Positions 1 through 36,994 of a stretch of DNA of 64,000 nucleotides are shown piece after piece. The notes under the pieces were generated by a model. The model was not told the DNA's origin, searched no databases, and was given only the letters and a program-made list of their open reading frames with translations. Source of the DNA: Craspedostauros australis (lineage: Eukaryota > Bacillariophyta > Bacillariophyceae > Mastogloiales > Achnanthaceae). Every line of letters begins with the position of its first letter. Positions within the stretch are counted from its first letter, which is position 1. Location of the stretch: the NCBI GenBank assembly GCA_026770025.1, contig JAMXDE010000014.1, positions 1 through 64,000 of the forward strand. The letters are read 5' to 3'. Both the position numbers and the translations under genes were made by a program.

Positions 1-2817
1 ACGTTGGTCCGCTGGTTGGGCCGCTGGTTGGTCCGCTGGTTGGTCCGCTGGTTGGTCCGCTCGTTGGTCCAGAGGTGGGGCCGGATGTTGGTCCGCTCGT
101 TGGTCCGGATGTTGGTCCGCTCGTTGGTCCGGATGTTGGTCCGCTGGTTGGTCCGCTGGTTGGTCCGCTGGTTGGTCCGCTGGTTGGTCCCGACGTTGGT
201 CCGCTGGTTGGTCCGCTGGTTGGTCCGCTAGTTGGTCCGCTAGTTGGTCCAGAGGTGGGGCCGGATGTTGGTCCGGATGTTGGGCCGCTAGTTGGTCCGC
301 TGGTAGGTCCGCTGGTTGGTCCAGATGTTGGTCCAGATGTTGGGCCGCTGGTTGGTTCTGATGTAGGTCCGCTGGTTGGTCCAGAAGTTGGGCCGGAGGT
401 TGGTCCGCTGGTTGGTCCGCTTGTTGGGCCGGAAGTTGGGCCGCTTGTTGGTCCAGATGTTGGTCCAGAGGTTGGTCCCGACGTTGGTCCGCTGGTTGGG
501 CCGCTGGTTGGTCCGCTAGTTGGTCCGCTAGTTGGTCCAGAGGTGGGGCCGGATGTTGGTCCGCTAGTTGGTCCGGATGTTGGTCCGCTCGTTGGTCCGG
601 ATGTTGGTCCGCTGGTTGGTCCGCTGGTTGGTCCCGACGTTGGTCCGCTAGTTGGGCCGGACGTTGGGCCACTGGTTGGTCCGCTAGTTGGTCCAGAGGT
701 GGGGCCGGATGTTGGTCCGCTCGTTGGTCCGGATGTTGGTCCGCTGGTTGGTCCGCTGGTTGGTCCGCTGGTTGGTCCGCTGGTTGGTCCCGACGTTGGT
801 CCGCTAGTTGGGCCACTGGTTGGTCCGCTAGTTGGGCCGGAAGTTGGGCCGCTTGTTGGTCCAGATGTTGGTCCAGAGGTTGGTCCCGACGTTGGTCCGC
901 TGGTTGGGCCGCTGGTTGGTCCGCTAGTTGGTCCGCTAGTTGGTCCAGAGGTGGGGCCGGATGTTGGTCCGCTAGTTGGTCCGGATGTTGGTCCGCTCGT
1001 TGGTCCGGATGTTGGTCCGCTGGTTGGTCCGCTGGTTGGTCCCGACGTTGGTCCGCTAGTTGGGCCGGACGTTGGGCCACTGGTTGGTCCGCTAGTTGGT
1101 CCAGAGGTGGGGCCGGATGTTGGTCCGCTCGTTGGTCCGGATGTTGGTCCGCTGGTTGGTCCGCTGGTTGGTCCCGACGTTGGTCCGCTAGTTGGGCCGG
1201 ACGTTGGGCCACTGGTTGGTCCGCTAGTTGGTCCAGAGGTGGGGCCGGATGTTGGTCCGCTCGTTGGTCCGGATGTTGGTCCGCTGGTTGGTCCGCTCGT
1301 TGGTCCGCTGGTTGGTCCGCTGGTTGGTCCGCTAGTTGGGCCGGACGTTGGGCCACTGGTTGGTCCGCTAGTTGGGCCGGAAGTTGGGCCGCTTGTTGGT
1401 CCAGATGTTGGTCCAGAGGTTGGTCCCGACGTTGGTCCGCTGGTTGGTCCGGAAGTAGGCCCAGATGTTGGTCCCGAGGTTGGCCCGCTAGTTGGTCCGC
1501 TGGTTGGTCCGCTAGTTGGGCCGGAAGTTGGGCCGCTTGTTGGTCCAGATGTTGGTCCAGAAGTTGGGCCGCTAGTTGGGCCGGACGTTGGGCCACTGGT
1601 TGGTCCGCTGGTTGGTCCCGAAGTTGGGCCGATAGTTGGTCCAGAGGTGGGGCCGGATGTTGGTCCGGATGTTGGGCCGCTTGTTGGTCCGCTGGTTGGT
1701 CCCGAGGTTGGTCCCGAAGTAGGTCCCCAGGTTGGTCCACTGGTTGGTCCGCTAGTTGGTCCAGATGTTGGTCCGCTAGTTGGGCCGGATGTAGGTCCGC
1801 TGGTTGGTCCAGAAGTTGGTCCGCTAGTTGGTCCAGAAGTTGGTCCGCTGGTTGGCCCAGATGTAGGTCCGGACGTTGGTCCGGACGTTGGTCCTGATGT
1901 TGGACCTGAAGTCGGTCCGCTAGTTGGGCCGCTAGTTGGGCCGCTAGTTGGTCCTGAAGTTGGTCCTGAAGTTGGTCCGCTGGTTGGTCCTGAAGTTGGT
2001 CCTGAAGTTGGTCCGCTGGTTGGTCCAGATGTTGGTCCAGAAGTAGGTCCGCTGGTAGGTGCAGATGTTGGTCCAGATGTTGGTCCAGATGTTGGGCCGG
2101 ATGTTGGTCCCGAGGTTGGTCCGGATGTTGGTCCGCTGGTTGGTCCGCTAGTTGGGCCGGAAGTTGGTCCTGAAGTAGGTCCAGATGTTGGGCCGCTAGT
2201 TGGGCCGCTGGTTGGTCCAGAGGTTGGTCCGGAAGTAGGTCCGCTGGTAGGTCCAGATGTCGGGCCAGATGTTGGTCCGCTAGTTGGTCCGCTGGTTGGT
2301 CCAGAAGTAGGTCCACTGGTTGGGCCACTGGTTGGTCCGCTGGTAGGTCCAGAGGTTGGGCCCGAAGTAGGTCCGCTAGTTGGTCCAGAAGTTGGTCCCG
2401 AGGTTGGTCCAGATGTTGGTCCCGAAGTTGGGCCACTAGTTGGTCCGCTCGTTGGTCCGCTGGTTGGGCCCGAAGTTGGTCCCGAAGTTGGGCCGCTGGT
2501 TGGTCCAGACGTTGGTCCGCTGGTTGGTCCGCTAGTTGGCCCAGAGGTTGGTCCAGAGGTCGGTCCAGATGTTGGTCCGCTAGTTGGTCCAGATGTTGGT
2601 CCGCTAGTTGGTCCAGATGTTGGTCCGCTGGTTGGTCCACTGGTTGGTCCGGAGGTTGGTCCGCTAGTTGGTCCGCTGGTTGGTCCAGATGTTGGTCCGC
2701 TTGTTGGCCCGGAAGTTGGGCCAGACGTTGGGCCAGAGGTGGGTCCGCTGGTTGGCCCACTGGTTGGTCCAGAGGTTGGTCCGCTGGTTGGCGCCGAAGT
2801 TGGGGCAGCCGTTGGTT
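1..2817 (-). repeat. Longest (Thr-Ser-Gly-Pro)n array, open at window edge
   Basis: This is a 12-base tandem array of about 234 units, read on the minus strand as TSGP with very few exceptions (for example TSEP near 355-366 and TSAP near 2060). Proline is almost always CCA and glycine is GGA or GGC, while serine uses AGC, TCT, TCC and TCG and threonine uses all four ACN codons. A higher-order structure is visible: a block starting at 431 recurs at 839 (offset 408) and at 1379 (offset 540), both multiples of 12. The array continues beyond the left edge. Confidence 0.95.
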
Positions 2818-5800
2818 CGATACACTCGGTGTTGCATGGAACATCGAAGTAGTACGCAGCAAAGCTGTCTGGATTGCCTGAGCCGCCTTCGCCGTCATCA
2901 CTTGGAAGGCTGCATGCCTCGCAGTTCTCACTGACAAAGTCATCGCCAGTGTAGATGTAGATCACCACATTCGTGGACATGTCCACACACTCGGCAGAAA
3001 GTGAGATTGGAGTGTTCTCTCCGACATTTGTAAACTCAGCGCATTCCTTCATACCAGTCTCAGACTTGTGGTACTTGATGAAGACATGAGGAATGACTCC
3101 GTTGATGATGTTCTGAACGAAGTCGAATTCGACCAGTGTTGCATCGTCGCTCTCGAATGTGAGGATGATTGGCTTGGGGTCGGCAGTGTAGGAAGGATCG
3201 GTGGATTCGACGAGCTTGGCGCCATCTGGATCAACGCAGTTGGTTGGTGCAGCACTGGCTGTTGGTTGGGATGTTGGCTGTGGAGTTGGTCCGCTGGTTG
3301 GTCCAGAAGTTGGTCCGCTGGTTGGTCCAGATGTTGGGCCGGATGTTGGTCCAGAAGTTGGCCCGCTAGTTGGTCCAGATGTTGGGCCGGAGGTTGGGCC
3401 ACTGGTTGGTCCCGAAGTTGGACCGCTAGTAGGTCCAGACGTTGGTCCGCTGGTTGGGCCGGAAGTAGGTCCAGATGTTGGTCCGCTGGTTGGCCCAGAT
3501 GTTGGTCCAGACGTTGGTCCCGAAGTTGGTCCGCTGGTTGGTCCAGATGTTGGGCCGGATGTTGGTCCCGAAGTTGGGCCGCTGGTTGGTCCGCTGGTTG
3601 GTCCGGAAGTTGGTCCACTGGTTGGTCCACTGGTTGGTCCGCTAGTTGGCCCAGAGGTTGGTCCAGATGTTGGGCCGCTAGTTGGTCCAGATGTTGGTCC
3701 GCTGGTTGGGCCTGAAGTAGGTCCGGAGGTTGGTCCAGAGGTTGGTCCGGAAGTAGGTCCAGAGGTTGGTCCAGATGTTGGTCCGCTAGTTGGTCCAGAT
3801 GTTGGGCCGCTGGTTGGACCGGATGTTGGTCCACTGGTTGGTCCGCTAGTTGGTCCCAAGGTAGGCCCAGATGTGGGTCCAGATGTGGGTCCAGATGTGG
3901 GTCCAGATGTTGGCCCAGATGTTGGTCCGGAGGTTGGTCCAGATGTTGGGCCGCTGGTTGGTCCGGATGTTGGTCCGCTGGTTGGTCCAGAAGTTGGGCC
4001 GCTAGTTGGGCCGGAAGTTGGCCCAGATGTTGGTCCGGAGGTAGGTCCAGAGGTTGGTCCACTGGTTGGGCCTGAAGTAGGTCCAGATGTTGGTCCACTG
4101 GTAGGTCCGCTCGTTGGTCCAGATGTTGGTCCAGAAGTAGGTCCGGAAGTAGGTCCGGATGTGGGTCCACTAGTTGGGCCGGAGGTTGGTCCAGATGTTG
4201 GTCCGCTAGTTGGGCCGGAAGTAGGTCCCGAAGTAGGTCCAGAGGTTGGTCCAGATGTTGGTCCGGATGTTGGTCCGCTGGTTGGGCCTGAAGTAGGTCC
4301 GGAGGTTGGTCCAGATGTTGGTCCGCTAGTTGGTCCGCTAGTTGGGCCGGAAGTTGGTCCACTGGTTGGTCCGCTAGTTGGTCCAGAAGTTGGGCCGGAT
4401 GTTGGTCCAGAGGTTGGGCCGGATGTTGGTCCCGAAGTTGGGCCGCTGGTTGGTCCGCTAGTTGGTCCTGATGTAGGTCCACTGGTTGGTCCACTGGTTG
4501 GTCCGCTGGTTGGTCCAGAGGTTGGGCCCGAAGTAGGTCCGCTAGTTGGTCCAGAGGTTGGTCCAGAGGTTGGTCCAGAGGTTGGTCCAGATGTTGGTCC
4601 GCTGGTTGGGCCTGAAGTAGGTCCAGATGTTGGTCCAGAGGTTGGTCCGCTGGTTGGTCCGGATGTTGGGCCGGAAGTCGGCCCGCTAGTTGGTCCAGAG
4701 GTTGGTCCGGAAGTTGGGCCTGAAGTAGGTCCTGACGTTGGTCCGGATGTTGGTCCCGCAGTAGGTTCACTGGTTGGTCCAGATGTTGGTCCAGACGTTG
4801 GTCCAGATGTTGGTCCCGAGGTTGGTCCACTAGTTGGGCCGCTGGTGGGTCCAGAAGTAGGTCCTGAGGTTGGGCCGCTAGTTGGTCCAGAGGTTGGTCC
4901 AGACGTTGGTCCAGACGTTGGTCCGGAAGTTGGGCCACTGGTTGGGCCGCTGGTTGGTCCGCTGGTAGGTCCAGATGTTGGGCCCGAAGTAGGTCCACTG
5001 GTTGGTCCACTGGTTGGTCCACTGGTTGGTCCACTGGTTGGTCCACTGGTTGGTCCACTGGTTGGTCCAGACGTTGGTCCACTGGTTGGTCCAGACGTTG
5101 GGCCACTGGTTGGGCCGCTGGTAGGTCCGCTGGTAGGTCCAGATGTTGGGCCCGAAGTAGGTCCAGAGGTTGGTCCGCTTGTTGGTCCGGAAGTCGGCCC
5201 GCTAGTTGGTCCACTGGTTGGTCCGGAAGTTGGTCCAGAAGTTGGTCCAGATGTTGGGCCAGAGGTTGGTCCGCTAGTAGGTCCAGAAGTTGGTCCGCTG
5301 GTTGGCGCCGAAGTTGGGGCTGCAGTTGGTTCGATACACTCGGTGTTGCATGGAACATCGAAGTAGTACGCAGCAAAGCTGTCTGGATTGCCTGAGCCAC
5401 CTTCGCCGTCATCACTTGGAAGGCTGCATGCCTCGCAGTTCTCACTGACAAAGTCATCACCAGTGTAGATGTAGATCACCACATTCGTGGACATGTCCAC
5501 ACACTCGGCAGAAAGTGAGATTGGAGTGTTCTCTCCGACATTTGTAAACTCAGCGCATTCCTTCATACCAGTCTCAGACTTGTGGTACTTGATGAAGACA
5601 TGAGGTATGACTCCGTTGATGATGTTCTGAACGAAGTCGAACTCAACGAGTGTTGCATCATCGCTCTCGAATGTGAGGATGATTGGCTTGGGGTCGGCAG
5701 TGTAGGAAGGATCAGTGGATTCGACGAGCTTGGCGCCATCTGGATCAACGCAGTTGGTTGGTGCAGCACTGGCTGTTGGCTGGGATGTTGGCTGTGGAGT

Positions 5801-8800
5801 TGGTCCGCTGGTTGGTCCAGAGGTTGGTCCAGCTGTTGGTCCAGATGTTGGGCCGGATGTTGGTCCAGAAGTTGGCCCGCTAGTTGGTCCAGATGTTGGG
5901 CCGGAGGTTGGGCCACTGGTTGGTCCCGAAGTTGGACCGCTAGTAGGTCCAGACGTTGGTCCGCTGGTTGGGCCGGAAGTAGGTCCAGATGTTGGTCCGC
6001 TGGTTGGCCCAGATGTTGGTCCAGACGTTGGTCCAGATGTTGGTCCGCTGGTTGGTCCAGATGTTGGGCCGGATGTTGGTCCCGAAGTTGGGCCGCTGGT
6101 TGGTCCGCTGGTTGGTCCGGAAGTTGGTCCACTGGTTGGTCCACTGGTTGGTCCGCTAGTTGGCCCAGAGGTTGGTCCAGATGTTGGGCCGCTAGTTGGT
6201 CCAGATGTTGGTCCGCTGGTTGGGCCTGAAGTAGGTCCGGAGGTTGGTCCAGAGGTTGGTCCAGAGGTTGGTCCGCTGGTTGGTCCGGATGTTGGTCCGC
6301 TAGTTGGTCCAGAGGTTGGTCCGGAAGTTGGGCCGGATGTAGGTCCACTGGTTGGTCCGCTAGTTGGTCCCAAGGTAGGTCCAGATGTGGGTCCAGATGT
6401 TGGTCCAGACGTTGGTCCAGATGTTGGTCCAGACGTTGGTCCAGATGTTGGTCCAGAAGTTGGTCCGCTGGTTGGTCCGGATGTTGGTCCAGAAGTAGGC
6501 CCAGAAGTAGGTCCGCTGGTTGGGCCGGAAGTAGGTCCAGATGTTGGTCCCGAGGTTGGTCCGCTAGTCGGTCCGCTAGTTGGTCCAGAGGTTGGCCCAG
6601 ATGTTGGGCCACTAGTTGGTGCCGAAGTAGGTCCGGAGGTTGGTCCAGAGGTTGGTCCGCTAGTTGGGCCGGAAGTAGGTCCCGAAGTAGGTCCAGAGGT
6701 TGGTCCAGAGGTTGGTCCAGATGTTGGTCCGCTGGTGGGTCCGCTGGTGGGTCCGCTGGTTGGGCCTGAAGTAGGTCCGGAGGTTGGTCCGCTGGTAGGT
6801 CCGCTCGTTGGTCCAGATGTTGGTCCAGATGTTGGTCCGGAAGTAGGTCCAGAGGTTGGTCCGGATGTGGGTCCACTAGTTGGGCCGGATGTTGGCCCAG
6901 ATGTTGGTCCGGATGTTGGTCCGCTGGTTGGGCCTGAAGTAGGTCCGGAGGTTGGCCCAGATGTTGGTCCGCTAGTTGGTCCGCTAGTTGGTCCAGATGT
7001 GGGTCCGCTGGTTGGGCCTGAAGTAGGTCCGGAAGTTGGTCCCGAAGTTGGTCCAGATGTCGGGCCTGAAGTTGGTCCGCTGGTTGGGCCAGAGGTTGGT
7101 CCAGATGTGGGTCCAGATGTTGGCCCAGATGTTGGTCCGGAGGTTGGTCCAGATGTTGGGCCGCTGGTTGGTCCGGAGGTAGGTCCAGAGGTTGGTCCAC
7201 TGGTTGGTCCACTGGTTGGGCCGGAAGTAGGTCCCGAAGTTGGGCCACTGGTTGGGCCACTGGTTGGGCCTGAAGTTGGTCCCGAAGTTGGTCCAGATGT
7301 CGGGCCTGAAGTTGGTCCACTGGTTGGTCCAGAGGTTGGTCCAGAGGTTGGTCCAGATGTTGGTCCCGAAGTAGGTCCGCTGGTTGGTCCGCTGGTTGGT
7401 CCGCTGGTTGGTCCGCTGGTTGGTCCGCTGGTTGGTCCGCTGGTTGGTCCAGATGTTGGTCCAGAGGTTGGTCCACTGGTTGGTCCGGAAGTTGGTCCGC
7501 TAGTTGGGCCGCTGGTTGGGCCGCTGGTTGGTCCAGAAGTAGGTCCGGAAGTTGGTCCACTGGTTGGGCCAGAGGTTGGGCCGGAAGTTGGTCCAGAAGT
7601 TGGTCCGCTGGTTGGTCCGCTAGTTGGTCCGCTGGTGGGTCCGCTAGTTGGTCCAGAGGTTGGTCCGGAAGTAGGTCCGCTAGTTGGTCCAGATGTTGGG
7701 CCGGATGTTGGTCCAGAGGTTGGGCCGCTGGTTGGTCCAGAGGTTGGGCCGCTGGTTGGACCGGATGTTGGTCCACTGGTTGGGCCGCTGGTTGGTCCGG
7801 ATGTTGGTCCGCTGGTTGGTCCCGAGGTTGGTCCACTGGTTGGTCCACTGGTTGGCCCACTGGTTGGGCCGCTGGTTGGTCCAGATGTTGGGCCGCTGGT
7901 TGGGCCGGAAGTTGGGCCGCTAGTTGGTCCAGATGTTGGTCCACTGGTTGGTCCACTGGTTGGTCCAGACGTTGGTCCTGAAGTTGGTCCTGATGTTGGT
8001 CCGCTGGTTGGGCCGAAAGTAGGTCCCGAAGTTGGTCCCGAAGTTGGTCCGCTGGTTGGGCCGGATGTTGGGCCGCTGGTTGGTCCGCTGGTTGGTCCAC
8101 TGGTTGGGCCAGATGTTGGTCCGGAAGTGGGTCCCGAAGTTGGGCCGGATGTTGGTCCACTGGTTGGTCCAGAGGTTGGTCCAGATGTTGGTCCAGATGT
8201 GGGTCCGCTGGTTGGGCCGCTTGTTGGTCCAGAGGTTGGTCCAGAAGTAGGTCCTGAGGTTGGGCCGCTAGTTGGTCCCGAAGTAGGTCCGCTAGTTGGG
8301 CCGCTAGTTGGTCCAGAAGTAGGTCCAGAGGTTGGTCCGCTGGTTGGCGCCGAAGTTGGGGCTGCAGTTGGCTCGATACACTCGGTGTTGCATGGAACAT
8401 CGAAGTAGTACGCAGCAAAGCTGTCTGGATTGCCTGAGCCACCTTCGCCGTCATCACTTGGAAGGCTGCATGCCTCGCAGTTCTCACTGACAAAGTCATC
8501 ACCAGTGTAGATGTAGATCACCACATTCGTGGACATGTCCACACACTCGGCAGAAAGTGAGATTGGAGTGTTCTCTCCAACATTTGTAAACTCAGCGCAT
8601 TCCTTCATACCAGTCTCAGACTTGCGGTACTTGATGAAGACATGCGGGATGACTCCGTTGATGATGTTCTGAACGAAGTCGAACTCAACGAGTGTTGCAT
8701 CATCGCTCTCGAATGTGAGGATGATTGGCTTGGGGTCGGCAGTGTAGGAAGGATCGGTGGATTCGACGAGCTTGGCGCCATCTGGATCAACGCAGTTGGT

Positions 8801-17800: not shown

Positions 17801-20800
17801 AGATGTTGGTCCAGAAGTCGGTCCAGAGGTTGGGCCGCTGGTTGGCCCAGATGTTGGCCCACTCGTTGGTCCAGATGTTGGTCCAGATGTTGGGCTTCCA
17901 GTCGGTCCTCCAGTTGGTCCGCTTGTTGGACCGCTGGTAGGTCCGGATGTTGGGCCGGAAGTTGGACCGCTGGTTGGCGCAGATGTTGGTCCAGAAGTTG
18001 GGCCACCTGTTGGGCCACCTGTTGGGCCAGAAGTGGGTCCTCCAGTTGGCCCGGATGTCGGTGCGGATGTTGGTCCTCCGGTTGGTCCAGATGTTGGTCC
18101 AGATGTTGGACCGGATGTTGGTCCGCCGGTAGGGCCGGAAGTTGGTCCAGATGTTGGTCCAGATGTTGGTCCAGATGTTGGTCCAGATGTCGGTCCGGAG
18201 GTTGGTCCCAAGGTTGGGCCGCTGGTTGGCCCTGAGGTTGGTGCCAAAGTTGGCGCTGCGGTTGGATCGATACACTCGGTCTGACATGGAAGCTCAAAGT
18301 AGTATGCCTCGAAGTTGTCCGGATTTCCAGAGTCTCCTTCGCCATCCGGGATGCTGCAAGCTTCACACTCCTCACTTGGGAAGTTGTCTCCTGTGTAGAT
18401 GTAGATGGCGACTCCAGTTACGCCAGAGAAACACTCAGCCGCGAGTGGGAAAGTGACACCAGCGCCGACGTTGTCGAACTGGGCGCAATCCTCTGTTCCA
18501 GTTTCCTGGCTGCGGTACTTGATGAAGACATGCGGAATGACTCCGTTGATGATGTTCTGCACAAAGTCGAACTCAACACTGGTTCCATCGTCACTCTCGA
18601 AAGTGAGCACGATTGGAAGTGGGTCGGCAGTGTAAGTAGAATCGGTGGAGTCCTTGAAGACGGCTCCATTTGGATCAACACAGTTGGTTGGTGCTGCGCT
18701 GGTGGTTGGTGCGGAGGTTGGCTTGCTGATTGGGCCGGATGTTGGTGTCGACGTTGGTTTGCTGGTTGGCGCAGACGTTGGATCGACACACTCGGTCTGA
18801 CATGGCAATTCGAAGTGATATACATTGAAATTGTCTGGATTTCCTGATTGGCCATCCTCATCTGGAAGGCTGCAAGCTTCGCAGTCCTCACTCGAGAAGT
18901 CGTCGCCGATATACGTATAAATCGTGACGGTGGTGACACCGCCGTAGCAATCGGCAGCCAGTGGGAGCGTAGCACCCTCATCGACATCATCAAATTCAGC
19001 ACATTCCTCGTCTCCGCTTTCCTGACTGCGGTACTTGATGAAGACATGTGGAACGACTCCATTGATGATGTTCTGAACGAAGTCGAACTCAACGAGTGTT
19101 GCATCATCGCTCTCGAATGTGAGGATGATTGGTTTGGGGTCGGCAGTGTAGGAAGGATCGGTGGATTCGACGAGCTTGGCGCCATCTGGATCAACGCAGT
19201 TGGTTGGTGCAGCACTGGCTGTTGGTTGGGATGTTGGCTGTGGGGTTGGTCCAGATGTTGGGCCGGAAGTTGGGTCAGATGTTGGTCCAGATGTTGGTCC
19301 GCTGGTTGGTCCGCTGGTTGGTCCGCTGGTTGGGCCGGATGTTGGTCCGCTGGTTGGTCCAGAAGTTGGGCCGCTGGTTGGTCCCGAAGTTGGGCCCGAG
19401 GTAGGTCCAGAAGTTGGTCCAGATGTTGGGCCAGAGGTTGGTCCAGAAGTTGGTGCAGATGCTGGTGCAGATGTTGGTCCGCTCGTTGGGCCGCCGGTGG
19501 GTCCAGAGGTTGGTCCGCTAGTTGGCTCTCTAGTTGGTCCACTGGTTGGTCCGCTGGTTGGTCCTGAAGTCGGTCCTGAAGTCGGCGCTGAGGTTGGTGC
19601 CGCAGTTGGATCCACGCACTCAGTCTGGCACGGAAGCTCAAAGTAGTATGCACCGAAGTCGTCCGGATTTCCGGATTCGTTGTCCTCCTCTGGAAGGCTG
19701 CAAGCTTCGCAGCCCTCACTCGAGAAGTCATCACCGGTGTAGATGTAGATCGAAACTCCTGTCACTCCTCCAAAACATTCAGCCACGAAGGAGGAAAAAT
19801 CACCCTTATCGACGTTGTCGAACTGGGCGCAATCCTCTGTTCCAGTTTCCTGGCTGCGGTACTTGATGAAGACATGCGGAATGACTCCGTTGATGATGTT
19901 CTGCACAAAGTCGAACTCAACACTGGTTCCATCGTCGCTCTCGAAAGTGAGCACGATTGGAAGTGGGTCGGCAGTGTAAGTAGAATCGGTGGAGTCCTTG
20001 AAGACAGCTCCGTTTGGATCAACACAGTTGGTTGGTGCTGCGCTGGTGGTTGGTGCGGAGGTTGGCTTGATGGTTGGTCCGGATGTCGGCCCTGAGGTTG
20101 GTGCAGAAGTTGGTGCGGATGTTGGTCCCCTTGTTGGTGCAGACGTTGGATCGACACACTCGGTCTGACATGGAAGCTCGAAGTAGTATGCCTCGAAGTT
20201 GTCTGGATTTCCTGATTGGCCATCCTCATCTGGGAGGCAGCAAGCTTGGCATTCCTCCCCTGGCCAGTCATCACCGGTGTAGATGTAGATAACGACGCTC
20301 GTCGTCTTCTCAATGCACTCCGCTGCGAAAGAATATGAAGCATCGACTTTGACATCTCGAAGCTCCGCGCACTCGTCTGTACCTGTGTCCAAATTAATGT
20401 ACTTGATGAACACCCGTGGAATAGCTTCATTCATGATGTTCTGGACGAAGTCAAACTCGATGCTTGTTCCCTCGTCGCTCTCGGAGATGAGAACGATCGG
20501 AAGTGGATCGGCACCGTAGTCAGCGTCTGTAGAATCGATCAGACTTGCACCGTCTGGATCGACACAGTTTGTCGGTGCTGCACTAAGAGTTGGTGAGGAA
20601 GTTGGCGTGCTCGTTGGACCGCTTGTTGGTCCAGAAGTTGGGCCCGAGGTTGGTCCGCTTGTTGGCCCGCTTGTTGGCCCACTTGTTGGTCCAGAAGTTG
20701 GTCCAGATGTTGGGTCGCTAGTTGGGCTCGAGGTTGGCCCGCTTGTTGGTCCAGATGTAGGTCCCGAAGTTGGACCGGATGTTGGTCCGCTGGTTGGTCC

Positions 20801-23782
20801 GCTGGTTGGTCCGCTGGTTGGTCCGCTGGTTGGCCCGCTGGTTGGCTGTGCTGTGGGGCTCGCGGTTGGTTCGCCGCACTCGTTATCACAAAGGATCTCA
20901 AACTCGTATGCTCTGAAGGCTTCGCTTGGCTCGTCGGGAACCGAGCAAATTTCGCACTGCTCCTCTGAGAAGTCGTTTCCTGTGTACACGTATAGGGCGA
21001 CTCGGGCGACAGCGCCGGTGCACTTGGCCTTGTATGTTGACACCTCTCCAGGAGCCGTATGCTCGCGCTCATCGCAGACGAACTCATCAGTCTCGTCGTC
21101 GCGATAGCTCACAAAGACTCGGTTGATTGTATCGTCGAGAATGTCCTGGATAAACTCGAACGTGACACTTGATGCATCAGAGACACTTCCTGTCACGATG
21201 ATCGGATGGGACTCTTTGCGCAACTTTTCTCCCTGGCTCTTGGTGAGAATGGCGCTGTAGGGGTCTGCGCAAACTGTTGGTGCGGGGCTTGATGTTGGGA
21301 CGTTTGTTGGAGGAGTCGGCGTCGTTGGTTGGCTGAAATAGTCGTTTGTGGATGCGCAACTGAATGGTGTCCAGGTGAGTTTTGTGAGCGCGCCGGGTCC
21401 ATTGTAGACGACATCAAGTTGGACGATATCGAACTCCACCAAGTTGATCTCGTAGTATCCGTTCTCGCCTGGTGATTTCATCTCCCTCCTGTGGACTGCG
21501 CCAGATGAAGCTGTCAGAACGACGTAAGGACTCTTCAGGTTGTCATTGCCAACGAGGAATCCCATCATCCCGACGTTCACAGAGTCTTTGAACTCCATGC
21601 TCAGCGTACCTCCGAGATCCGCAGCGTCGGGACAGCTCTTGTCGGACTGCTGGATGATCAGGGCCTTTCCCAGCGGTTCGCAGTTGGAAAAGGAGGACTT
21701 CGGCACGCCTCCACTTCCAACACCTGGACCTCCACCGACGCATTGCTTGTTTGGGGCACCAAGACCAGGCTCGCCATCTCCTGCATCTGGAGCCTTTGGG
21801 CTGTTGGAACAAAGGCTCTGGTCGTAGACAAAGTGTTCACTGATGAAGTCCTCGTGGATTCCGTATGGTCTGAGGGTGTCGAAAACCATCGCGGCGCCAC
21901 CATCGGGAGAATTTCTGGTGAACATTCCTTCGTCGTCTTTCACCGGCGTAAATGCCTGAGCATTCTCCTTTCCGCCCACGTAGATGGCGCGAATCTTCAC
22001 ACCGTACTCGACGTAGAACTGATCATCGACGTAGGTTCCAGCTTCGAAAGCATCGGTGATATCTTGGAGGTTGTAGATGGGGCAAGATTGATCGACGCAG
22101 TCCAATGGGAGCGGGAGATCGCACGTTGGGTCGAATGGGTAGTTGTGGAATTCACTCCCACTGAAGTCGTGGTGAACGCTTCCGCCAACGATGGTACGCC
22201 CGCTCTGTCCAGGCATTGTCATCACCAGATCACCGAACGGGATCAAGATGCTGCCCCAAAACTCTCCGTTCGACCCTTGGTAGTTTCCAAGCCTCACTTC
22301 ATAGGAGTCGTAAAAATTCCACAAGATGTTCTTGGCCACAGATGCGCTGAATTCGAAGATCGAACTTGAGCCGAAAGGGTCAATGAGCTTGGCAATTCCG
22401 GAGAGGGTGGCAATGCCATTGTCGGACTTGACGTTGATCAGGATGGTCTTGCCAGCAAGGCTACGGTCCATCCGGATGTTGTGGGCGGTTGACCATGCAA
22501 GATCTGCGGAGTCGATGTGGAAAACTTGAAGGCATTCGTCGTCTCCTGCCACCAAGCTTGCGTACGCTCCTCCGTGCCTGGAGCGCGGGTTAAAGATGCC
22601 GTTCGCCTCGAGTTTGGACCAATAGATGGACCGGGCTTCGAACTCGTTGAACATGTCATTGTAAGACGACAGATCCATATCCTCGTCGCGCATGGCCGCT
22701 CCAGGACCGTGGAACTCGGCGTCGTTGTCAATGGAGAAAGATCCCTTGTACTTGATGTTACCACCACCAGCGATGCCACCGCCCATGACCCAAACTCCAG
22801 CGTTGTTGAATTTCTCATTCCTGAGATCTCCGCCAACCAGCATGAAGTCACTTCCGGCGGGAGGGACGATGAGCGATCCAACTCCAGCCTGTCCAAGAGA
22901 GTTGACACCATCCGGCTTGATGGTGAAGTCTCCGAAAACGACGATGCGGCCTTCGATTTCGGCGGCTCTCTCCGACAGATAGTCACCTTTGACGAGGAAG
23001 GCGGTGCTGTTGTCGCGGCCCATGACGTATGGACGCTTTGAATCACCGTAGACTCTATCAAGGTTCATGCTCATGATGGAAGGTATGACGGGAGGGCGGA
23101 GACCCGAAGTGCTGACTGGCCCAACCAGATCGAGGAGGTTGGGTTCGCAGACTTGGATCTCGTAGTCGGTTGTTGGGGGGATGAAGTTCTTGGCAGGATC
23201 CGAAGAAGGGTCAGAAGGCTTGTCCTTGGCGGAGTCGCCTGCTCCCATCTTGTTGGCACCACCAAGGGGTGGACGACACTGCTTGTTGCTGTTGCAAACA
23301 AGATTGCCGCAGCACTCTTCGGTCTTGGTGCATGGAGCCCAGTCGACGACCTTTCCGCCGCAGCCTGCGGTTCCCGCGGGGTTGTAGAAGCACTCTGGAT
23401 GGCAGATGCCATCTTTGCCGTTGCACCACATTGGGCACGATCCGTCACCGGTGTCATCGCAGCAACCTTGCATGGGAACGATGGCCTCGTATTGGCCTTC
23501 GGGGAAGCAGGCGTAGTATCCGTCAGGATGGATACTGCAATCGTGGCTCTCGTCGCAGCAGTGCTCCTTCTTGTAACACCCTCCCCAGTACTCACTGCAA
23601 GATGCAGAGAGTTCACGGAAGGGGGGCAGGATGGAACCTTTGGCCGATGCTGGATCGGAGCTGGGCTTGGGAACGGAGGCAAGAGCAGGATCACGGCGGT
23701 CGAGATTAGAAGGACCACTGGAGGTCTCCTTTCCTGCAACCGCAGCGAGCTGCAACATCAACGCAGAGTAGAGGACTCTCAT
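1..23782 (-). CDS. Giant secreted choice-of-anchor-A / TSGP-repeat adhesin-like protein (C-terminus beyond window)
   Basis: The frame is open from the ATG at 23782 to position 1 (at least 7,927 codons) and continues off the window; I saw no stop in the stretches I translated, and no intron is needed. Residues 1-17 (MRVLYSALMLQLAAVAG) form a signal peptide. Residues about 60-170 are Cys-rich, with knottin-like spacing such as CTKTEECCGNLVC. Residues about 260-550 resemble the choice-of-anchor A adhesin domain: a strand-rich stretch, then ILWNFYDSYEVRL, FWGSILIPFGD, TIVGGS and EFHNYPF. From about residue 835 onward, 15 Cys-bearing modules alternate with Thr-Ser-Gly-Pro arrays. The module and array frames stay in phase throughout, and array codons vary only synonymously, which fixes strand and frame. 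A role in the cell wall, mucilage or adhesion is inferred. No C-terminal anchor is visible because the end is missing. Confidence 0.9.
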   Translation of the reverse strand, partial: MRVLYSALMLQLAAVAGKETSSGPSNLDRRDPALASVPKPSSDPASAKGSILPPFRELSASCSEYWGGCYKKEHCCDESHDCSIHPDGYYACFPEGQYEAIVPMQGCCDDTGDGSCPMWCNGKDGICHPECFYNPAGTAGCGGKVVDWAPCTKTEECCGNLVCNSNKQCRPPLGGANKMGAGDSAKDKPSDPSSDPAKNFIPPTTDYEIQVCEPNLLDLVGPVSTSGLRPPVIPSIMSMNLDRVYGDSKRPYVMGRDNSTAFLVKGDYLSERAAEIEGRIVVFGDFTIKPDGVNSLGQAGVGSLIVPPAGSDFMLVGGDLRNEKFNNAGVWVMGGGIAGGGNIKYKGSFSIDNDAEFHGPGAAMRDEDMDLSSYNDMFNEFEARSIYWSKLEANGIFNPRSRHGGAYASLVAGDDECLQVFHIDSADLAWSTAHNIRMDRSLAGKTILINVKSDNGIATLSGIAKLIDPFGSSSIFEFSASVAKNILWNFYDSYEVRLGNYQGSNGEFWGSILIPFGDLVMTMPGQSGRTIVGGSVHHDFSGSEFHNYPFDPTCDLPLPLDCVDQSCPIYNLQDITDAFEAGTYVDDQFYVEYGVKIRAIYVGGKENAQAFTPVKDDEGMFTRNSPDGGAAMVFDTLRPYGIHEDFISEHFVYDQSLCSNSPKAPDAGDGEPGLGAPNKQCVGGGPGVGSGGVPKSSFSNCEPLGKALIIQQSDKSCPDAADLGGTLSMEFKDSVNVGMMGFLVGNDNLKSPYVVLTASSGAVHRREMKSPGENGYYEINLVEFDIVQLDVVYNGPGALTKLTWTPFSCASTNDYFSQPTTPTPPTNVPTSSPAPTVCADPYSAILTKSQGEKLRKESHPIIVTGSVSDASSVTFEFIQDILDDTINRVFVSYRDDETDEFVCDEREHTAPGEVSTYKAKCTGAVARVALYVYTGNDFSEEQCEICSVPDEPSEAFRAYEFEILCDNECGEPTASPTAQPTSGPTSGPTSGPTSGPTSGPTSGPTSGPTSGPTSGPTSSPTSDPTSGPTSGPTSGPTSGPTSGPTSGPTSGPTSGPTSTPTSSPTLSAAPTNCVDPDGASLIDSTDADYGADPLPIVLISESDEGTSIEFDFVQNIMNEAIPRVFIKYINLDTGTDECAELRDVKVDASYSFAAECIEKTTSVVIYIYTGDDWPGEECQACCLPDEDGQSGNPDNFEAYYFELPCQTECVDPTSAPTRGPTSAPTSAPTSGPTSGPTIKPTSAPTTSAAPTNCVDPNGAVFKDSTDSTYTADPLPIVLTFESDDGTSVEFDFVQNIINGVIPHVFIKYRSQETGTEDCAQFDNVDKGDFSSFVAECFGGVTGVSIYIYTGDDFSSEGCEACSLPEEDNESGNPDDFGAYYFELPCQTECVDPTAAPTSAPTSGPTSGPTSGPTSGPTREPTSGPTSGPTGGPTSGPTSAPASAPTSGPTSGPTSGPTSGPTSGPTSGPTSGPTSGPTSGPTSGPTSGPTSGPTSGPTSGPTSDPTSGPTSGPTPQPTSQPTASAAPTNCVDPDGAKLVESTDPSYTADPKPIILTFESDDATLVEFDFVQNIINGVVPHVFIKYRSQESGDEECAEFDDVDEGATLPLAADCYGGVTTVTIYTYIGDDFSSEDCEACSLPDEDGQSGNPDNFNVYHFELPCQTECVDPTSAPTSKPTSTPTSGPISKPTSAPTTSAAPTNCVDPNGAVFKDSTDSTYTADPLPIVLTFESDDGTSVEFDFVQNIINGVIPHVFIKYRSQETGTEDCAQFDNVGAGVTFPLAAECFSGVTGVAIYIYTGDNFPSEECEACSIPDGEGDSGNPDNFEAYYFELPCQTECIDPTAAPTLAPTSGPTSGPTLGPTSGPTSGPTSGPTSGPTSGPTSGPTGGPTSGPTSGPTSGPTGGPTSAPTSGPTGGPTSGPTGGPTGGPTSGPTSAPTSGPTSGPTSGPTSGPTSGPTGGPTGSPTSGPTSGPTSGPTSGPTSGPTSGPTSGPTSGPTGGPTSAPTSAPTSGPTSGPTSNPTSAPTTSAAPTNCVDPNGAVFKDSTDSTYTADPLPIVLTFESDDGTSVEFDFVQNIINGVIPHVFIKYRNQETGTEDCAQFDNVGAGVTFPLAAECFSGVTGVAIYIYTGDNFPSEECEACSIPDGEGDSGNPDNFEAYYFELPCQTECIDPTAAPTLAPTSGPTSGPTLGPTSGPTSGPTSGPTSGPTSGPTSGPTGGPTSGPTSGPTSGPTGGPTSAPTSGPTGGPTSGPTGGPTGGPTSGPTSAPTSGPTSGPTSGPTSGPTSGPTGGPTGSPTSGPTSGPTSGPTSGPTSGPTSGPTSGPTSGPTGGPTSAPTSAPTSGPTSGPTSNPTSAPTTSAAPTNCVDPNGAVFKDSTDSTYTADPLPIVLTFESDDGTSVEFDFVQNIINGVIPHVFIKYRNQETGTEDCAQFDNVGAGVTFPLAAECFSGVTGVAIYIYTGDNFPSEECEACSIPDGEGDSGNPDNFEAYYFELPCQTECIDPTAAPTLAPTSGPTSGPTSGPTSGPTSGPTSGPTSGPTSGPTSGPTSGPTSGPTSGPTSGPTSGPTGGPTSAPTSGPTGGPTSGPTGGPTGGPTSAPTSAPTSGPTSGPTSGPTSGPTSGPTGGPTGSPTSGPTSGPTSGPTSGPTSGPTSGPTSGPTSGPTSGPTSGPTGGPTSAPTSAPTSGPTSGPTSNPTSAPTTSAAPTNCVDPNGAVFKDSTDSTYTADPLPIVLTFESDDGTSVEFDFVQNIINGVIPHVFIKYRNQETGTEDCAQFDNVGAGVTFPLAAECFSGVTGVAIYIYTGDNFPSEECEACSIPDGEGDSGNPDNFEAYYFELPCQTECIDPTAAPTLAPTSGPTSGPTSGPTSGPTSGPTSGPTSGPTSGPTSGPTSGPTSGPTSGPTSGPTSGPTGGPTSAPTSGPTGGPTSGPTGGPTGGPTSAPTSAPTSGPTSGPTSGPTSGPTSGPTGGPTGSPTSGPTSGPTSGPTSGPTSGPTSGPTSGPTSGPTSGPTSGPTGGPTSAPTSAPTSGPTSGPTSNPTSAPTTSAAPTNCVDPNGAVFKDSTDSTYTADPLPIVLTFESDDGTSVEFDFVQNIINGVIPHVFIKYRNQETGTEDCAQFDNVGAGVTFPLAAECFSGVTGVAIYIYTGDNFPSEECEACSIPDGEGDSGNPDNFEAYYFELPCQTECIDPTAAPTLAPTSGPTSGPTSGPTSGPTSGPTSGPTSGPTSGPTSGPTSGPTSGPTSGPTSGPTSGPTGGPTSAPTSGPTGGPTSGPTGGPTGGPTSAPTSAPTSGPTSGPTSGPTSGPTSGPTGGPTGSPTSGPTSGPTSGPTSGPTSGPTSGPTSGPTSGPTGGPTSAPTSAPTSGPTSGPTSNPTSAPTTSAAPTNCVDPNGAVFKDSTDSTYTADPLPIVLTFESDDGTSVEFDFVQNIINGVIPHVFIKYRNQETGTEDCAQFDNVGAGVTFPLAAECFSGVTGVAIYIYTGDNFPSEECEACSIPDGEGDSGNPDNFEAYYFELPCQTECIDPTAAPTLAPTSGPTSGPTSGPTGGPTSGPTSGPTSGPTSGPTSGPTSGPTSGPTSGPTSGPTSGPTGGPTSAPTPGPTGGPTSGPTSGPTSGPTSGPTSGPTSGPTSGPTSGPTSGPTSGPTSGPTSGPTSGPTSGPTGGPTSAPTSGPTSGPTSGPTSGPTSGPTSGPTSGPTSGPTSGPTGGPTSGPTSGPTSGPTSGPTSGPTSAPTSTPTSAPTTSAAPTNCVDPDGAKLKGSTDPDYTADPKPIVLTFESDDGTLVEFDFVQNIINGVIPHVFIKYRNAETGINECSEIMNAGEDATFSYAAECIDQTTMVTIYIYTGDNFAGEDCEACSLPTDDGETGSGNPDNFEAYYFELPCNTECIEPTASPTSAPTSGPTSGPTSGPTSGPTSGPTSGPTSGPTSGPTSGPTSGPTSGPTFGPTSGPTSGPTSGPTSGPTSGPTFGPTSGPTSGPTSGPTSGPTSGPTSGPTSGPTSGPTSGPTSGPTSGPTSGPTSGPTSGPTSGPTSGPTSGPTSGPTSGPTSGPTSGPTSGPTSGPTSGPTSGPTSGPTSGPTSEPTSGPTSGPTSGPTSGPTSGPTSGPTSGPTSGPSSGPTSGPTSGPTSGPTSGPTSGPTSGPTSGPTSGPTSGPTSGPTSGPTSGPTSGPTSGPTSGPTSGPTSGPTSGPTSGPTSGPTSGPTSRPTSGPTSGPTSGPTSGPTSGPTSGPTSGPTSGPTSGPTSGPTSEPTSGPTSGPTSGPTSGPTSGPTSGPTSGPTSGPTSRPTSGPTSGPTSGPTSGPTSGPTSGPTSGPTSGPTSGPTSGPTSGPSSGPTSDPTSGPTSGPTSGPTSGPTSGPTSGPTSRPTSGPTSGPTSGPTSGPTSGPTSGPTSGPTSGPTSGPTSGPTSGPTSGPTSGPTSGPTSGPTPQPTSQPTASAAPTNCVDPDGAKLVESTDPSYTADPKPIILTFESDDATLVEFDFVQNIVNGVIPHVFIKYRKSETGMKECAEFTNVGENTPISLSAECVDMSTNVVIYIYTGDDFVSENCEACSLPSDDGEGGSGNPDSFAAYYFDVPCNTECIEPTAAPTSAPTSGPTSGPTSGPTSGPTSGPTSGPTSGPTSGPTSGPTSGPTSGPTSGPTSGPTSGPTSGPTSGPTSGPTSGPTSGPTSGPTSGPTSGPTSGPTSGPTSGPTSGPTSGPTFGPTSGPTSGPTSGPTSGPTSGPTSGPTSGPTSGPTSGPTSGPTSGPTSGPTSGPTSGPTSGPTSGPTSGPTSGPTSGPTSEPTSGPTSGPTSGPTSGPTSGPTSGPTSGPTSGPTSGPTSGPTSGPTSGPTSGPTSGPTSGPTSGPTSGPTSGPTSGPTSGPTSGPTSGPTSGPTSGPTSGPTSGPTSGPTSGPTSGPTSGPTSGPTSGPTSGPTSGPTSGPTSGPTSGPTSGPTSGPTSRPTSGPTSGPTFGPTSGPTSGPTSGPTSGPTSGPTPQPTSQPTASAAPTNCVDPDGAKLVESTDPSYTADPKPIILTFESDDATLVEFDFVQNIINGVIPHVFIKYRKSETGMKECAEFTNVGENTPISLSAECVDMSTNVVIYIYTGDDFVSENCEACSLPSDDGEGGSGNPDSFAAYYFDVPCNTECIEPTAAPTSAPTSGPTSGPTSGPTSGPTSGPTSGPTSGPTSGPTSGPTSGPTSGPTSGPTSGPTSGPTSGPTSGPTSGPTSGPTSGPTSGPTSGPTSGPTSGPTSGPTSGPTSGPTSGPTFGPTSGPTSGPTSGPTSGPTSGPTSGPTSGPTSGPTSGPTSGPTSGPTSGPTSGPTSGPTSGPTSGPTSGPTSGPTSGPTSGPTSGPTSGPTSGPTSGPTSGPTSGPTSGPTSGPTSGPTSGPTSGPTSGPTSGPTSGPTSGPTSGPTSGPTSGPTSGPTSGPTSGPTSGPTSGPTSGPTSGPTSGPTSGPTSGPTSGPTSGPTSGPTSGPTSGPTSGPTSGPTSGPTSGPTSGPTSGPTSGPTSGPTSGPTSGPTSGPTSGPTSGPTSGPTSGPTSGPTSGPTSGPTSGPTSGPTSGPTSGPTSGPTSGPTSGPTSGPTSGPTSGPTSGPTSGPTSGPTSGPTSGPTSGPTSGPTSGPTSGPTSGPTSGPTSGPTSGPTSGPTSGPTSGPTSGPTSGPTSGPTSGPTSGPTSGPTSGPTSGPTSGPTSGPTSGPTSGPTSGPTSGPTSGPTSGPTSGPTSGPTSAPTSGPTSGPTSGPTSGPTSGPTSGPTSGPTSGPTSGPTSGPTSGPTSGPTSGPTSGPTSGPTSGPTSGPTSGPTSGPTSGPTLGPTSGPTSGPTSGPTSGPTSGPTSGPTSGPTSGPTSGPTSGPTSGPTSGPTSGPTSGPTSGPTSGPTSGPTSGPTSGPTSGPTSGPTSGPTSGPTSGPTSGPTSGPTSGPTSGPTSGPTSGPTSGPTSGPTSGPTSGPTSGPTSGPTSGPTSGPTSGPTSGPTSGPTSGPTSGPTSGPTAGPTSGPTSGPTPQPTSQPTASAAPTNCVDPDGAKLVESTDPSYTADPKPIILTFESDDATLVEFDFVQNIINGVIPHVFIKYHKSETGMKECAEFTNVGENTPISLSAECVDMSTNVVIYIYTGDDFVSENCEACSLPSDDGEGGSGNPDSFAAYYFDVPCNTECIEPTAAPTSAPTSGPTSGPTSGPTSGPTSGPTSGPTSGPTSGPTSGPTSGPTSGPTSGPTSGPTSGPTSGPTSGPTSGPTSGPTSGPTSGPTSGPTSGPTSGPTSGPTSGPTSGPTSGPTSGPTSGPTSGPTSGPTSGPTSGPTSGPTSGPTSGPTSGPTSGPTSGPTSGPTSGPTSGPTSGPTSGPTSEPTAGPTSGPTSGPTSGPTSGPTSGPTSGPTSGPTSGPTSGPTSGPTSGPTSGPTSGPTSGPTSGPTSGPTSGPTSGPTSGPTSGPTSGPTSGPTSGPTSGPTSGPTSGPTSGPTSGPTSGPTSGPTSGPTSGPTSGPTSGPTSGPTSGPTSGPTSGPTSGPTSGPTSGPTSGPTSGPTSGPTSGPTSGPTSGPTSGPTSGPTSGPTSGPTSGPTSGPTSGPTSGPTSGPTSGPTSGPTSGPTSGPTSGPTSGPTSGPTSGPTSGPTSGPTSGPTSGPTSGPTSGPTSGPTSGPTSGPTSGPTLGPTSGPTSGPTSGPTSGPTSGPTSGPTSGPTSGPTSGPTSGPTSGPTSGPTSGPTSGPTSGPTSGPTSGPTSGPTSGPTSGPTSGPTSGPTSGPTSGPTSGPTSGPTSGPTSGPTSGPTSGPTSGPTSGPTSGPTSGPTSGPTSGPTSGPTSGPTSGPTSGPTSGPTSGPTSGPTSGPTSGPTSGPTSGPTPQPTSQPTASAAPTNCVDPDGAKLVESTDPSYTADPKPIILTFESDDATLVEFDFVQNIINGVIPHVFIKYHKSETGMKECAEFTNVGENTPISLSAECVDMSTNVVIYIYTGDDFVSENCEACSLPSDDGEGGSGNPDSFAAYYFDVPCNTECIEPTAAPTSAPTSGPTSGPTSGPTSGPTSGPTSGPTSGPTSGPTSGPTSGPTSGPTSGPTSGPTSGPTSGPTSGPTSGPTSGPTSGPTSGPTSGPTSGPTSGPTSGPTSGPTSGPTSGPTSGPTSGPTSGPTSGPTSGPTSGPTSGPTSGPTSGPTSGPTSGPTSGPTSGPTSGPTSGPTSGPTSGPTSGPTSGPTSGPTSGPTSGPTSGPTSGPTSGPTSGPTSGPTSGPTSGPTSGPTSGPTSGPTSGPTSAPTSGPTSGPTSGPTSGPTSGPTSGPTSGPTSGPTSGPTSGPTSGPTSGPTSGPTSGPTSGPTSGPTSGPTSGPTSGPTSGPTSGPTSGPTSGPTSGPTSGPTSGPTSGPTWGPTSGPTSGPTSGPTSGPTSGPTSGPTSGPTIGPTSGPTSGPTSGPTSGPTSGPTSGPTSGPTSGPTSGPTSGPTSGPTSGPTSGPTSGPTSGPTSGPTSGPTSGPTSGPTSGPTSGPTSGPTSGPTSGPTSGPTSGPTSGPTSGPTSGPTSGPTSGPTSGPTSGPTSGPTSGPTSGPTSGPTSGPTSGPTSGPTSGPTSGPTSGPTSGPTSGPTSGPTSGPTSGPTSGPTSGPTSGPTSGPTSGPTSGPTSGPTSGPTSGPTSGPTSGPTSGPTSGPTSGPTSGPTSGPTSGPTSGPTSGPTSGPTSGPTSGPTSGPTSGPTSGPTSGPTSGPTSGPTSGPTSGPTSGPTSGPTSGPTSGPTSGPTSGPTSGPTSGPTSGPTSGPTSGPTSGPTSGPTSGPTSGPTSGPTSGPTSGPTSGPTSGPTSGPTSGPTSGPTSGPTSGPTSGPTSGPTSEPTSGPTSGPTSGPTSGPTSGPTSGPTSGPTSGPTSGPTSGPTSGPTSGPTSGPTSGPTSGPTSGPTSGPTSGPTSGPTSGPTSGPTSGPTSGPTSGPTSGPTSGPTSGPTSGPTSGPT
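3285..5325 (-). repeat. (Thr-Ser-Gly-Pro)n array between the 14th and 15th modules
   Basis: About 170 twelve-base units are in frame with the flanking Cys modules. The array contains local runs of near-identical units, for example four 'ccagatgtgggt' units near 3865-3910 and six 'ccactggttggt' units near 4990-5065, which indicate recent slippage expansion. Confidence 0.95.
5800..8370 (-). repeat. (Thr-Ser-Gly-Pro)n array between the 13th and 14th modules
   Basis: About 213 twelve-base units make this the longest fully enclosed array. The first part, just downstream of module 14's N-terminal boundary at about 5800-6230, closely parallels 3285-3715, so the module plus adjoining linker was duplicated as a block. 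A run of six identical units lies at about 7378-7447. Confidence 0.95.
7957..10290 (-). repeat. Segmental duplication, 1,650-base offset
   Basis: Sequence at about 7957-8640 recurs at about 9607-10290, almost unchanged and at a constant offset of 1,650 bases. It spans the end of a TSGP array plus the start of a Cys module. The same rare variant units ('ggccgaaagtag', 'ccggaagtgggt') occur in both copies in the same order. Module-sized unequal exchange or tandem duplication is the simplest explanation. Confidence 0.85.
8835..10015 (-). repeat. (Thr-Ser-Gly-Pro)n array between the 12th and 13th modules
   Basis: About 98 twelve-base units encode TSGP on the minus strand, in frame with the modules on both sides. 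The left part at 8835-8935 contains rare variants, for example TSRP near 8940. Confidence 0.9.
10485..12090 (-). repeat. (Thr-Ser-Gly-Pro)n array between the 11th and 12th modules
   Basis: About 134 twelve-base units. Variant units such as 'ggccgagaggtt' (encoding TSRP) occur twice, near 10672 and 11152, with a similar neighbourhood; this marks an internal duplication of about 480 bases. Confidence 0.9.
13354..18417 (-). repeat. Five tandem ~1.0-kb units (Cys module plus TSGP/TGGP linker), near-identical
   Basis: Equivalent points fall at 13354, 14362, 15394, 16426, 17422 and 18418, giving periods of 1008, 1032, 1032, 996 and 996 bases, all multiples of 12. The units at 16426-17421 and 17422-18417 appear identical over their full length (same translation in all frames compared). 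The 14362 and 15394 units differ by only a couple of tetrapeptides. Linkers here mix TSGP with TGGP and TSAP. The size differences equal whole tetrapeptides, so both array slippage and whole-unit duplication act on this stretch. Confidence 0.93.
20600..20880 (-). repeat. First (most N-terminal) TSGP array
   Basis: About 23 twelve-base units lie between the first and second Cys modules at about residues 967-1060. This is short compared with the arrays near the C-terminal side. Confidence 0.9.
22130..23010 (-). other. Choice-of-anchor A-like domain within the giant protein
   Basis: This domain lies at about residues 258-550 of the giant protein. It begins near AFLVKGDYLSERAAEIEGR and IVVFGDFTI, continues through LIVPPAGSDFMLVGGDL, and closes with ILWNFYDSYEVRL, EFWGSILIPFGDLVM, RTIVGGSV and SEFHNYPF. 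The end block matches the family pattern as I know it: an LWNF motif, a GS-[IV]-L-[AI]-P block, a [GN]..I.G core and an E-[FI]-H-N end. In bacteria this domain is found near the N-terminus of secreted, surface-anchored adhesins. Its presence behind a eukaryotic signal peptide in an intron-bearing genome suggests ancient transfer, which is an inference. Confidence 0.7.
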
Positions 23783-36547: not shown

Positions 36548-36994
36548 CTTCACCCTGCTGTCTGACTGTATTTTACGAGCTATGGGCTGTCATGTGATCT
36601 CTCCGCGATCGTGGACGTGTTGTTGTGGTGCGCGCAAGTCGATCATGTACAACTACGTGCCTCGAAGTTCGCACGTGTTGCTCGAGTTGCAGGAGTATCT
36701 TCCAAACATTCCGACCATCTTGCACAGAACATGAGAAGGACATTCTCTTCGCGCGTATCATGCACGACTAGAAAGAAGCGAGTCATGACCAATATTCTAA
36801 ATGTCATTAGTAGCGACCGTCATGCCATACGTGTTGGTTCGCGTTGTGTGCAAATGATTCTGTGTGACCAGGTTGGTTGTGACACAATCCTCGCGGAACG
36901 CTCTTGTTGTTGCCAACACGAAAATCTGTGATGTGCAGAAGGCTCCTCCTCTGCGGTGTCCAATCGTACACATTATACGCATTGCAGATGGACG
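36548..36994. other. Divergent promoter region
   Basis: 447 bases lie between the aconitase X start and the COX15 start. Both genes read away from it, so it should hold both promoters. No recognisable element beyond this arrangement is seen. Confidence 0.5.

Follow-up and report, generated by a model that had tools for sequence, protein, structure and literature searches.

A frame of 7,927 codons at the end of contig C12

The window analyzed here is bases 1 to 64,000 of contig C12 (JAMXDE010000014.1) from the raphid diatom Craspedostauros australis, whose genome assembly (DD_uo2022, GCA_026770025.1) comprises 74,831,031 bp in 90 contigs. The gene under study lies on the minus strand of the window and encodes a giant modular protein, which we read as a probable Trailin-type adhesive. 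From the ATG at 23782, its open reading frame continued for 7,927 codons to window base 2 and contained no stop. The uninterrupted frame of at least 7,927 codons that had been predicted from the letters alone was thus confirmed, and so was the giant size; the predicted mass of more than 750 kDa was not reached by the C12 part alone, for which 748.4 kDa was calculated. Upstream of the ATG, 100 more codons of the same frame are open before a TGA that ends at 24085, and none of them is a second ATG.

Openness is cheap in arrays of four-residue units, and 4,940 codons (approximately 62% of the frame) lie in such arrays, mostly of proline-threonine-serine-glycine (PTSG). The test is the remaining 2,987 non-array codons, in which no stop was found, whereas approximately 124 were expected by chance from the base composition and 105 from a first-order Markov model. 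An in-frame stop, which would have spoken for several genes, was found nowhere in the frame. The other five frames over 2..23782 contained between 40 and 378 stops each, and the open stretches in them reached up to 986 codons, a length that follows from the 12-bp period of the arrays. The absence of introns, also part of the original prediction, is inferred from the open frame alone. The window starts with the first base of contig C12. What looked like a frame open to the edge of the window is therefore a frame that runs into the end of the assembled contig within a PTSG array.

The head of the protein

Residues 3 to 17 of the N-terminus had a mean Kyte-Doolittle value of 1.78. This hydrophobic N-terminus is a putative signal peptide, and the protein, as predicted, is probably secreted. 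No 19-residue stretch above the hydropathy threshold was found in the open frame of C12 or of C21, a second contig introduced below. The Cys-rich head and the choice-of-anchor A (CAA) domain were both found as predicted. The CAA domain (TIGR04215 / PF20597) scored 126.4 bits against a cut-off of 29 and 101.1 bits against a cut-off of 23.8; it was also above the cut-off in a scan of the species' own genome, and its predicted fold is an ice-binding-like beta-helix.

The profile searches proposed along with the prediction thus matched the CAA domain, and they linked the modules described below to a known family by profile only. The Cys-rich head had no Pfam match at an expectation value (E) of 10, and that of the C23 paralogue (see below) had no Pfam match either. 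A resemblance to fungal cellulose-binding domains was considered and received no support. No Pfam match was obtained for the post-CAA region. Protein searches with the head in its array context gave no match at E 0.001, and no solved structure was retrieved by sequence when the CAA and module profiles served as queries. When an alignment of seven CAA domains was the query, 22 matches were obtained among 7,995 scored candidates, and a scan of GTDB genomes gave three loci out of 156 pattern matches. The UniRef entry 'Choice-of-anchor A family protein' of C. australis was identical at 526/526 positions to locus L015 on contig C2. The genome holds at least seven CAA genes, one of them with two CAA domains (L010, L011, L013, L014, L015, and L023 are among the loci).

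Modules and PTSG arrays

Behind the head, 15 modules of approximately 145 residues, each with seven cysteines, alternate with (PTSG)n arrays in one open frame (Table 1), in agreement with the predicted in-phase alternation. Two window modules tested against Pfam gave no hit at E 10, and the curated cut-off of DUF7633 (PF24636) was not reached. Among the few loci retrieved for the comparison, a profile built from 30 modules hit the PF24636-matching tail of the C23 paralogue at E 5.9e-6; a second profile, extended from this tail, recovered all 15 window modules. Judged from these profiles, the C12 modules are distant relatives of DUF7633. No paper in the collection searched named DUF7633 or PF24636, and none there mentioned PKZILLA-1 together with the 'largest protein'. 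In comparisons with a modelled module, fibronectin type III chains made up much of the list of weak structural matches.

Since modules m5 to m9 are identical over 432 bp and the units of approximately 1 kb around them are nearly so, the m5-m9 region is, by its sequence identity, a recent tandem duplication of a module-plus-array unit. The units of m4 to m8 were 93 to 99.7% identical, and that of m9 87 to 89%. The stretch 13202-18697 holds six such units, five of them with identical modules, and their copy number may be wrong in the assembly. Modules m5 to m9 and m11 to m14 were at least 19 nucleotides (nt) away from their C23 counterparts, whereas m10 was only 8 nt away, which suggests sequence exchange between the two paralogues at m10. 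Arrays and modules would grow as blocks of 12-bp units are duplicated in frame.

Selection on the encoded protein

All array units that read in phase between modules were pooled from C12, C23, and C21 and left unfiltered, since units picked by a pattern (proline plus a small residue required) would build in part of the conservation. Only 5 of the 3,052 units did not start with Pro-Thr. The fraction of minor bases did not exceed 0.001 at positions one and two of the Pro and Thr codons; at position three of the four codons, it ranged from 0.14 to 0.61. In the same pool, 472 units departed by a single base from the unit made of the most frequent base at every position; PTSG was kept in 465 of them, compared with 12 of the 36 possible single changes that would preserve it. 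Serine was encoded by both TCN and AGY codons, which are two base changes apart, with AGY in 1,139 of the 3,133 PTSG units. Moreover, the ratio of nonsynonymous to synonymous substitution rates (dN/dS) was 0.09 to 0.38 in 11 of the 12 module pairs, and the remaining pair was saturated. By these substitution patterns, the C12 frame is selected at the protein level.

A complete paralogue and the missing tail

A complete paralogue was found on contig C23 as one open frame (Table 1). Its plan comprises a hydrophobic N-terminus, a Cys-rich head, a CAA domain, and 12 modules. Its arrays reach 574 units, and its tail includes a match to DUF7633 and a final Cys-rich segment. The CAA domains of C12 and C23 share 43% identity, and the two genes are separate loci.

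On C12, the gene has its head but breaks off at the contig end before any tail. Contig C21 starts within a PTSG array and stays open on the plus strand for 3,240 codons, through four modules into a tail with 58% identity to the C23 tail. The four modules of C21 were 6 to 15 nt away from m11 to m14 of C12, but 21 to 26 nt away from m11/m12 of C23. In addition, a block of 17 units, 16 of them identical, recurs in the last array of C12 and the second array of C21. This block scored 15, whereas 200 shuffles of the second C21 array gave scores of at most 5. When the best six partners of each array were considered, the other C12-C21 pairs scored at most 7, and the C23 arrays at most 6 against any C12 or C21 array, so that the array evidence for a join comes from this one block. 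Comparable blocks occur within C12 (34/34 and 34/35) and within C23 (57/63). An overlap between the facing end arrays of C12 and C21 was sought but not found (score 3). Because modules and one array block match C12 rather than C23, the tail of the C12 gene is most likely the first approximately 10 kb of contig C21. The C12 and C21 frames add up to 11,167 codons and 1,046 kDa, not counting the gap between them, and the C12 frame would be the 5' part, with approximately 70% of the codons now known. Near C21:9664 (L059 / L049), the homology to the C23 tail switches frame at a run of A and continues to about 10133; this switch is likely an assembly error. Contig C39, the other candidate partner for C21, was rejected, with array scores of at most 3 and unit-spectrum similarities of 0.17 to 0.26 with all arrays.

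Other array genes and neighbours

Contig C39 carries (L077, C39:1-~14 kb) a minus-strand frame of 4,704 codons, which runs off the left end inside a PTSG array and has no tail. A minus-strand frame of 6,049 codons is present on C17, where its span appears to end at most about 213 bases from the right end at 1,384,205. A module of 93 residues occurs with 100% identity in four copies on C17 and in five on C39, the query included, and each contig holds one further copy, at 99% and 90%. The partner of C39 is probably C17, and a second giant gene seems to be split between these two contigs at its PTSG arrays. This break pattern, with identical modules on both sides, supports the joining of C12 and C21. 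No CAA match was found on the C39/C17 gene in the own-genome scan, and one stretch of the C17 tail gave nothing in Pfam.

Contig C6 ends inside a different, Pro/Ser-rich array with the frame open (L078, C6:3012636-3015035), and a frame of 5,126 codons is located at C6:2999669. The neighbours of the C12 gene within the window were assigned by Pfam to aconitase X, HSP90, two frames with a helicase-associated domain, and a pentatricopeptide repeat protein.

Table 1. Features of the C12 gene, its paralogue and its neighbours (window positions unless a contig is named; pLDDT, predicted local distance difference test)
Feature	Position	Strand	Basis
Open reading frame of 7,927 codons, cut by the C12 contig end	2..23782	minus	translation, stop counts
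Putative signal peptide, residues 1-17, MRVLYSALMLQLAAVAG	23732..23782	minus	sequence; hydropathy
Cys-rich head, residues ~61-175	23258..23602	minus	sequence
CAA domain	22130..22996	minus	profile match
Post-CAA region, residues ~625-811, 36-38% identity to nine other genome places	21350..21910	minus	sequence comparison
First, divergent module; 38% to type module, seven cysteines kept	20876..21283	minus	sequence comparison
Module m1	20150..20581	minus	sequence comparison
Module m2	19610..20041	minus	sequence comparison
Module m3	18782..19213	minus	sequence comparison
Module m4, modelled, pLDDT 83	18266..18697	minus	sequence comparison, structure model
Modules m5-m9 with array spacers, modules mutually identical over 432 bp	13202..17701	minus	sequence comparison
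Module m10; 8 nt from C23 counterpart	12104..12541	minus	sequence comparison
PTSG array, 137 units	10460..12103	minus	unit count
Module m11	10022..10459	minus	sequence comparison
PTSG array, 101 units	8810..10021	minus	unit count
Module m12	8372..8809	minus	sequence comparison
PTSG array, 217 units	5768..8371	minus	unit count
Module m13	5330..5767	minus	sequence comparison
PTSG array, 173 units	3254..5329	minus	unit count
Module m14	2816..3253	minus	sequence comparison
Terminal PTSG array, 234 units, cut by contig end; units 193-209 common to second C21 array (16/17)	8..2815	minus	unit count
Ordinary neighbour frame	34277-36553	minus	Pfam
Ordinary neighbour frame	44837-47266	minus	Pfam
Ordinary neighbour frame	49860-56233	plus	Pfam
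Ordinary neighbour frame	58102-60528	plus	Pfam
C23 paralogue, ATG 373438 to 344492, 9,649 residues, 893.7 kDa	C23:344492-373438		one open frame

A proposed adhesive tether

We propose, with a probability of about 0.8, that the C12 frame covers the 5' portion of a giant adhesive gene of Trailin type in this raphid diatom and that C12 and C21 together make one tether gene. The two contigs would be two pieces of a gene of at least approximately 11,000 codons, whose secreted product of at least 1.05 MDa would leave the cell through the raphe and enter the adhesive trail. There, the CAA head with its ice-binding-like beta-helix could serve as the binding end, the cysteine-rich beta-sandwich modules would unfold singly under load, and the PTSG arrays, probably O-glycosylated, would act as hydrated, extended spacers. 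The whole would be a micrometre-long extensible tether that keeps the gliding cell stuck to the surface and passes on traction. Authors who study this species suggest in PMC11420354 that trail proteins of very large size, 'approximately 2 um in length', could act both as force transducer and as adhesive, and sawtooth force curves of Toxarium undulatum adhesive pads are ascribed to extensible modular proteins in the review PMC3821603. The reference lists also contain the title of a report of this kind on a motile pennate species. The anatomy of the C12 gene, with serial Cys-rich beta modules, long PTSG spacers, and a binding-type head, fits such a tether; an extensible, load-bearing adhesive is its likely role.

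The joined gene would fall apart if C21 were the tail of some other gene, with no megadalton gene across C12 and C21. The two contigs share neither an overlap nor a spanning read, and the unit-spectrum similarity of the last C12 and first C21 arrays (0.36) was the lowest of the C12/C21 pairs compared. Nevertheless, a head without a tail faces a tail without a head, C21 is linked by its modules and one array block to C12 and not to C23 or C39, and the same break recurs with identical modules in C17/C39. We consider a separate C21 gene improbable. If, on the other hand, the C12 gene were a non-expressed, decaying duplicate, a pseudogene in progress, the product of C23 would be the real adhesive. 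The frame switch in the C21 tail and the complete, open state of C23 are in keeping with decay, but the lack of stops where 105 to 124 were expected, the low dN/dS of 11 of the 12 module pairs, and the 465 of 472 one-step array units that are synonymous all argue against it, and we hold it to be very improbable.

It is also conceivable that the product is a structural glycoprotein of cell wall or mucilage, mucin-like or ice-binding, and not for gliding adhesion. The predicted CAA fold is ice-binding-like, the PTS-rich arrays are mucin-like, and a sea-ice diatom paper (PMC13149256) places PF20597 among the ice-binding proteins. Against this stands the report of CaTrailin4 from C. australis trails (PMC11420354), although CaTrailin4 may be another of the seven CAA genes. 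A purely structural role is, in our opinion, unlikely.

Beyond the adhesive tether gene itself, we put forward a more detailed proposal tentatively and at somewhat less than even odds. C12 plus C21 may be an undescribed megadalton Trailin distinct from CaTrailin4, of at least 11,000 codons and at least 1.05 MDa and up to approximately 4 um when fully extended, whose full length escaped notice because the assembly breaks at PTSG arrays. C39 plus C17 would be the second such case, giving at least three array proteins of approximately a megadalton or more, and the array sizes would act as a fast-evolving ruler of tether length.

Gliding and biofouling by diatoms depend on an adhesive, and its component molecules are only beginning to be named. 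With the anatomy of two paralogues at hand (CAA head, seven-cysteine modules, PTSG spacers, and tail), the idea that modular adhesive proteins of diatom mucilage unfold sequentially becomes testable per module. Furthermore, the reference assembly cuts giant adhesive genes at contig ends, and gene models and masses derived from it are possibly too small.

Relation to Trailins and other known systems

In the 2023 study of Zackova Suchanova et al., Trailins were reportedly defined by the CAA domain, and four of them are said to have been found in trails. The C12 gene would belong with the C. australis Trailins, since its head has a CAA domain for which an ice-binding-like beta-helix is predicted. 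The original prediction had found no described match for the architecture and had called the size exceptional. The first of these claims is not supported: CaTrailin4 (approximately 900 kDa) is reported from C. australis adhesive trails and Ca5609 as a trail protein of more than 1 MDa (PMC11420354), and CaTrailin_4 is described with an ice-binding-like beta-helix (PMC10713564). With both proteins in print, the size of the C12 product is not unprecedented in this species, and the C12 gene is possibly already among the named trail proteins.

CaTrailin4 shares with the C12 gene the species, the giant modular build, and the ice-binding-like beta-helix, which is predicted for C12. By mass alone (893.7 versus approximately 900 kDa), the C23 paralogue would be CaTrailin4; the C12 gene lies at another locus and is cut short by the contig end, its product amounting to 748 kDa on C12 alone and to at least 1.05 MDa with C21. 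The Trailin study, which PMC12159174 cites for the C. australis genome, probably used the same assembly. Ca5609 has the megadalton class and the species in common with the C12 gene; in the passages of PMC11420354 that treat it, Ca5609 is not called a Trailin and so probably lacks CAA, whereas the C12 gene has it. By size, the C39/C17 gene may correspond to Ca5609.

Outside the trail proteins, the link to DUF7633 (PF24636) is one of profiles, below a Pfam match. In bacterial CAA proteins and DUF3494 ice-binding proteins, the domain is not followed by a giant module/array tract as it is in C12. Titin-type and fibronectin-type mechanical proteins, to which no sequence relation was found and from which the C12 protein differs by its probable secretion and its PTSG spacers, likewise string serial beta-sandwich modules together with disordered spacers, the organization predicted for C12.
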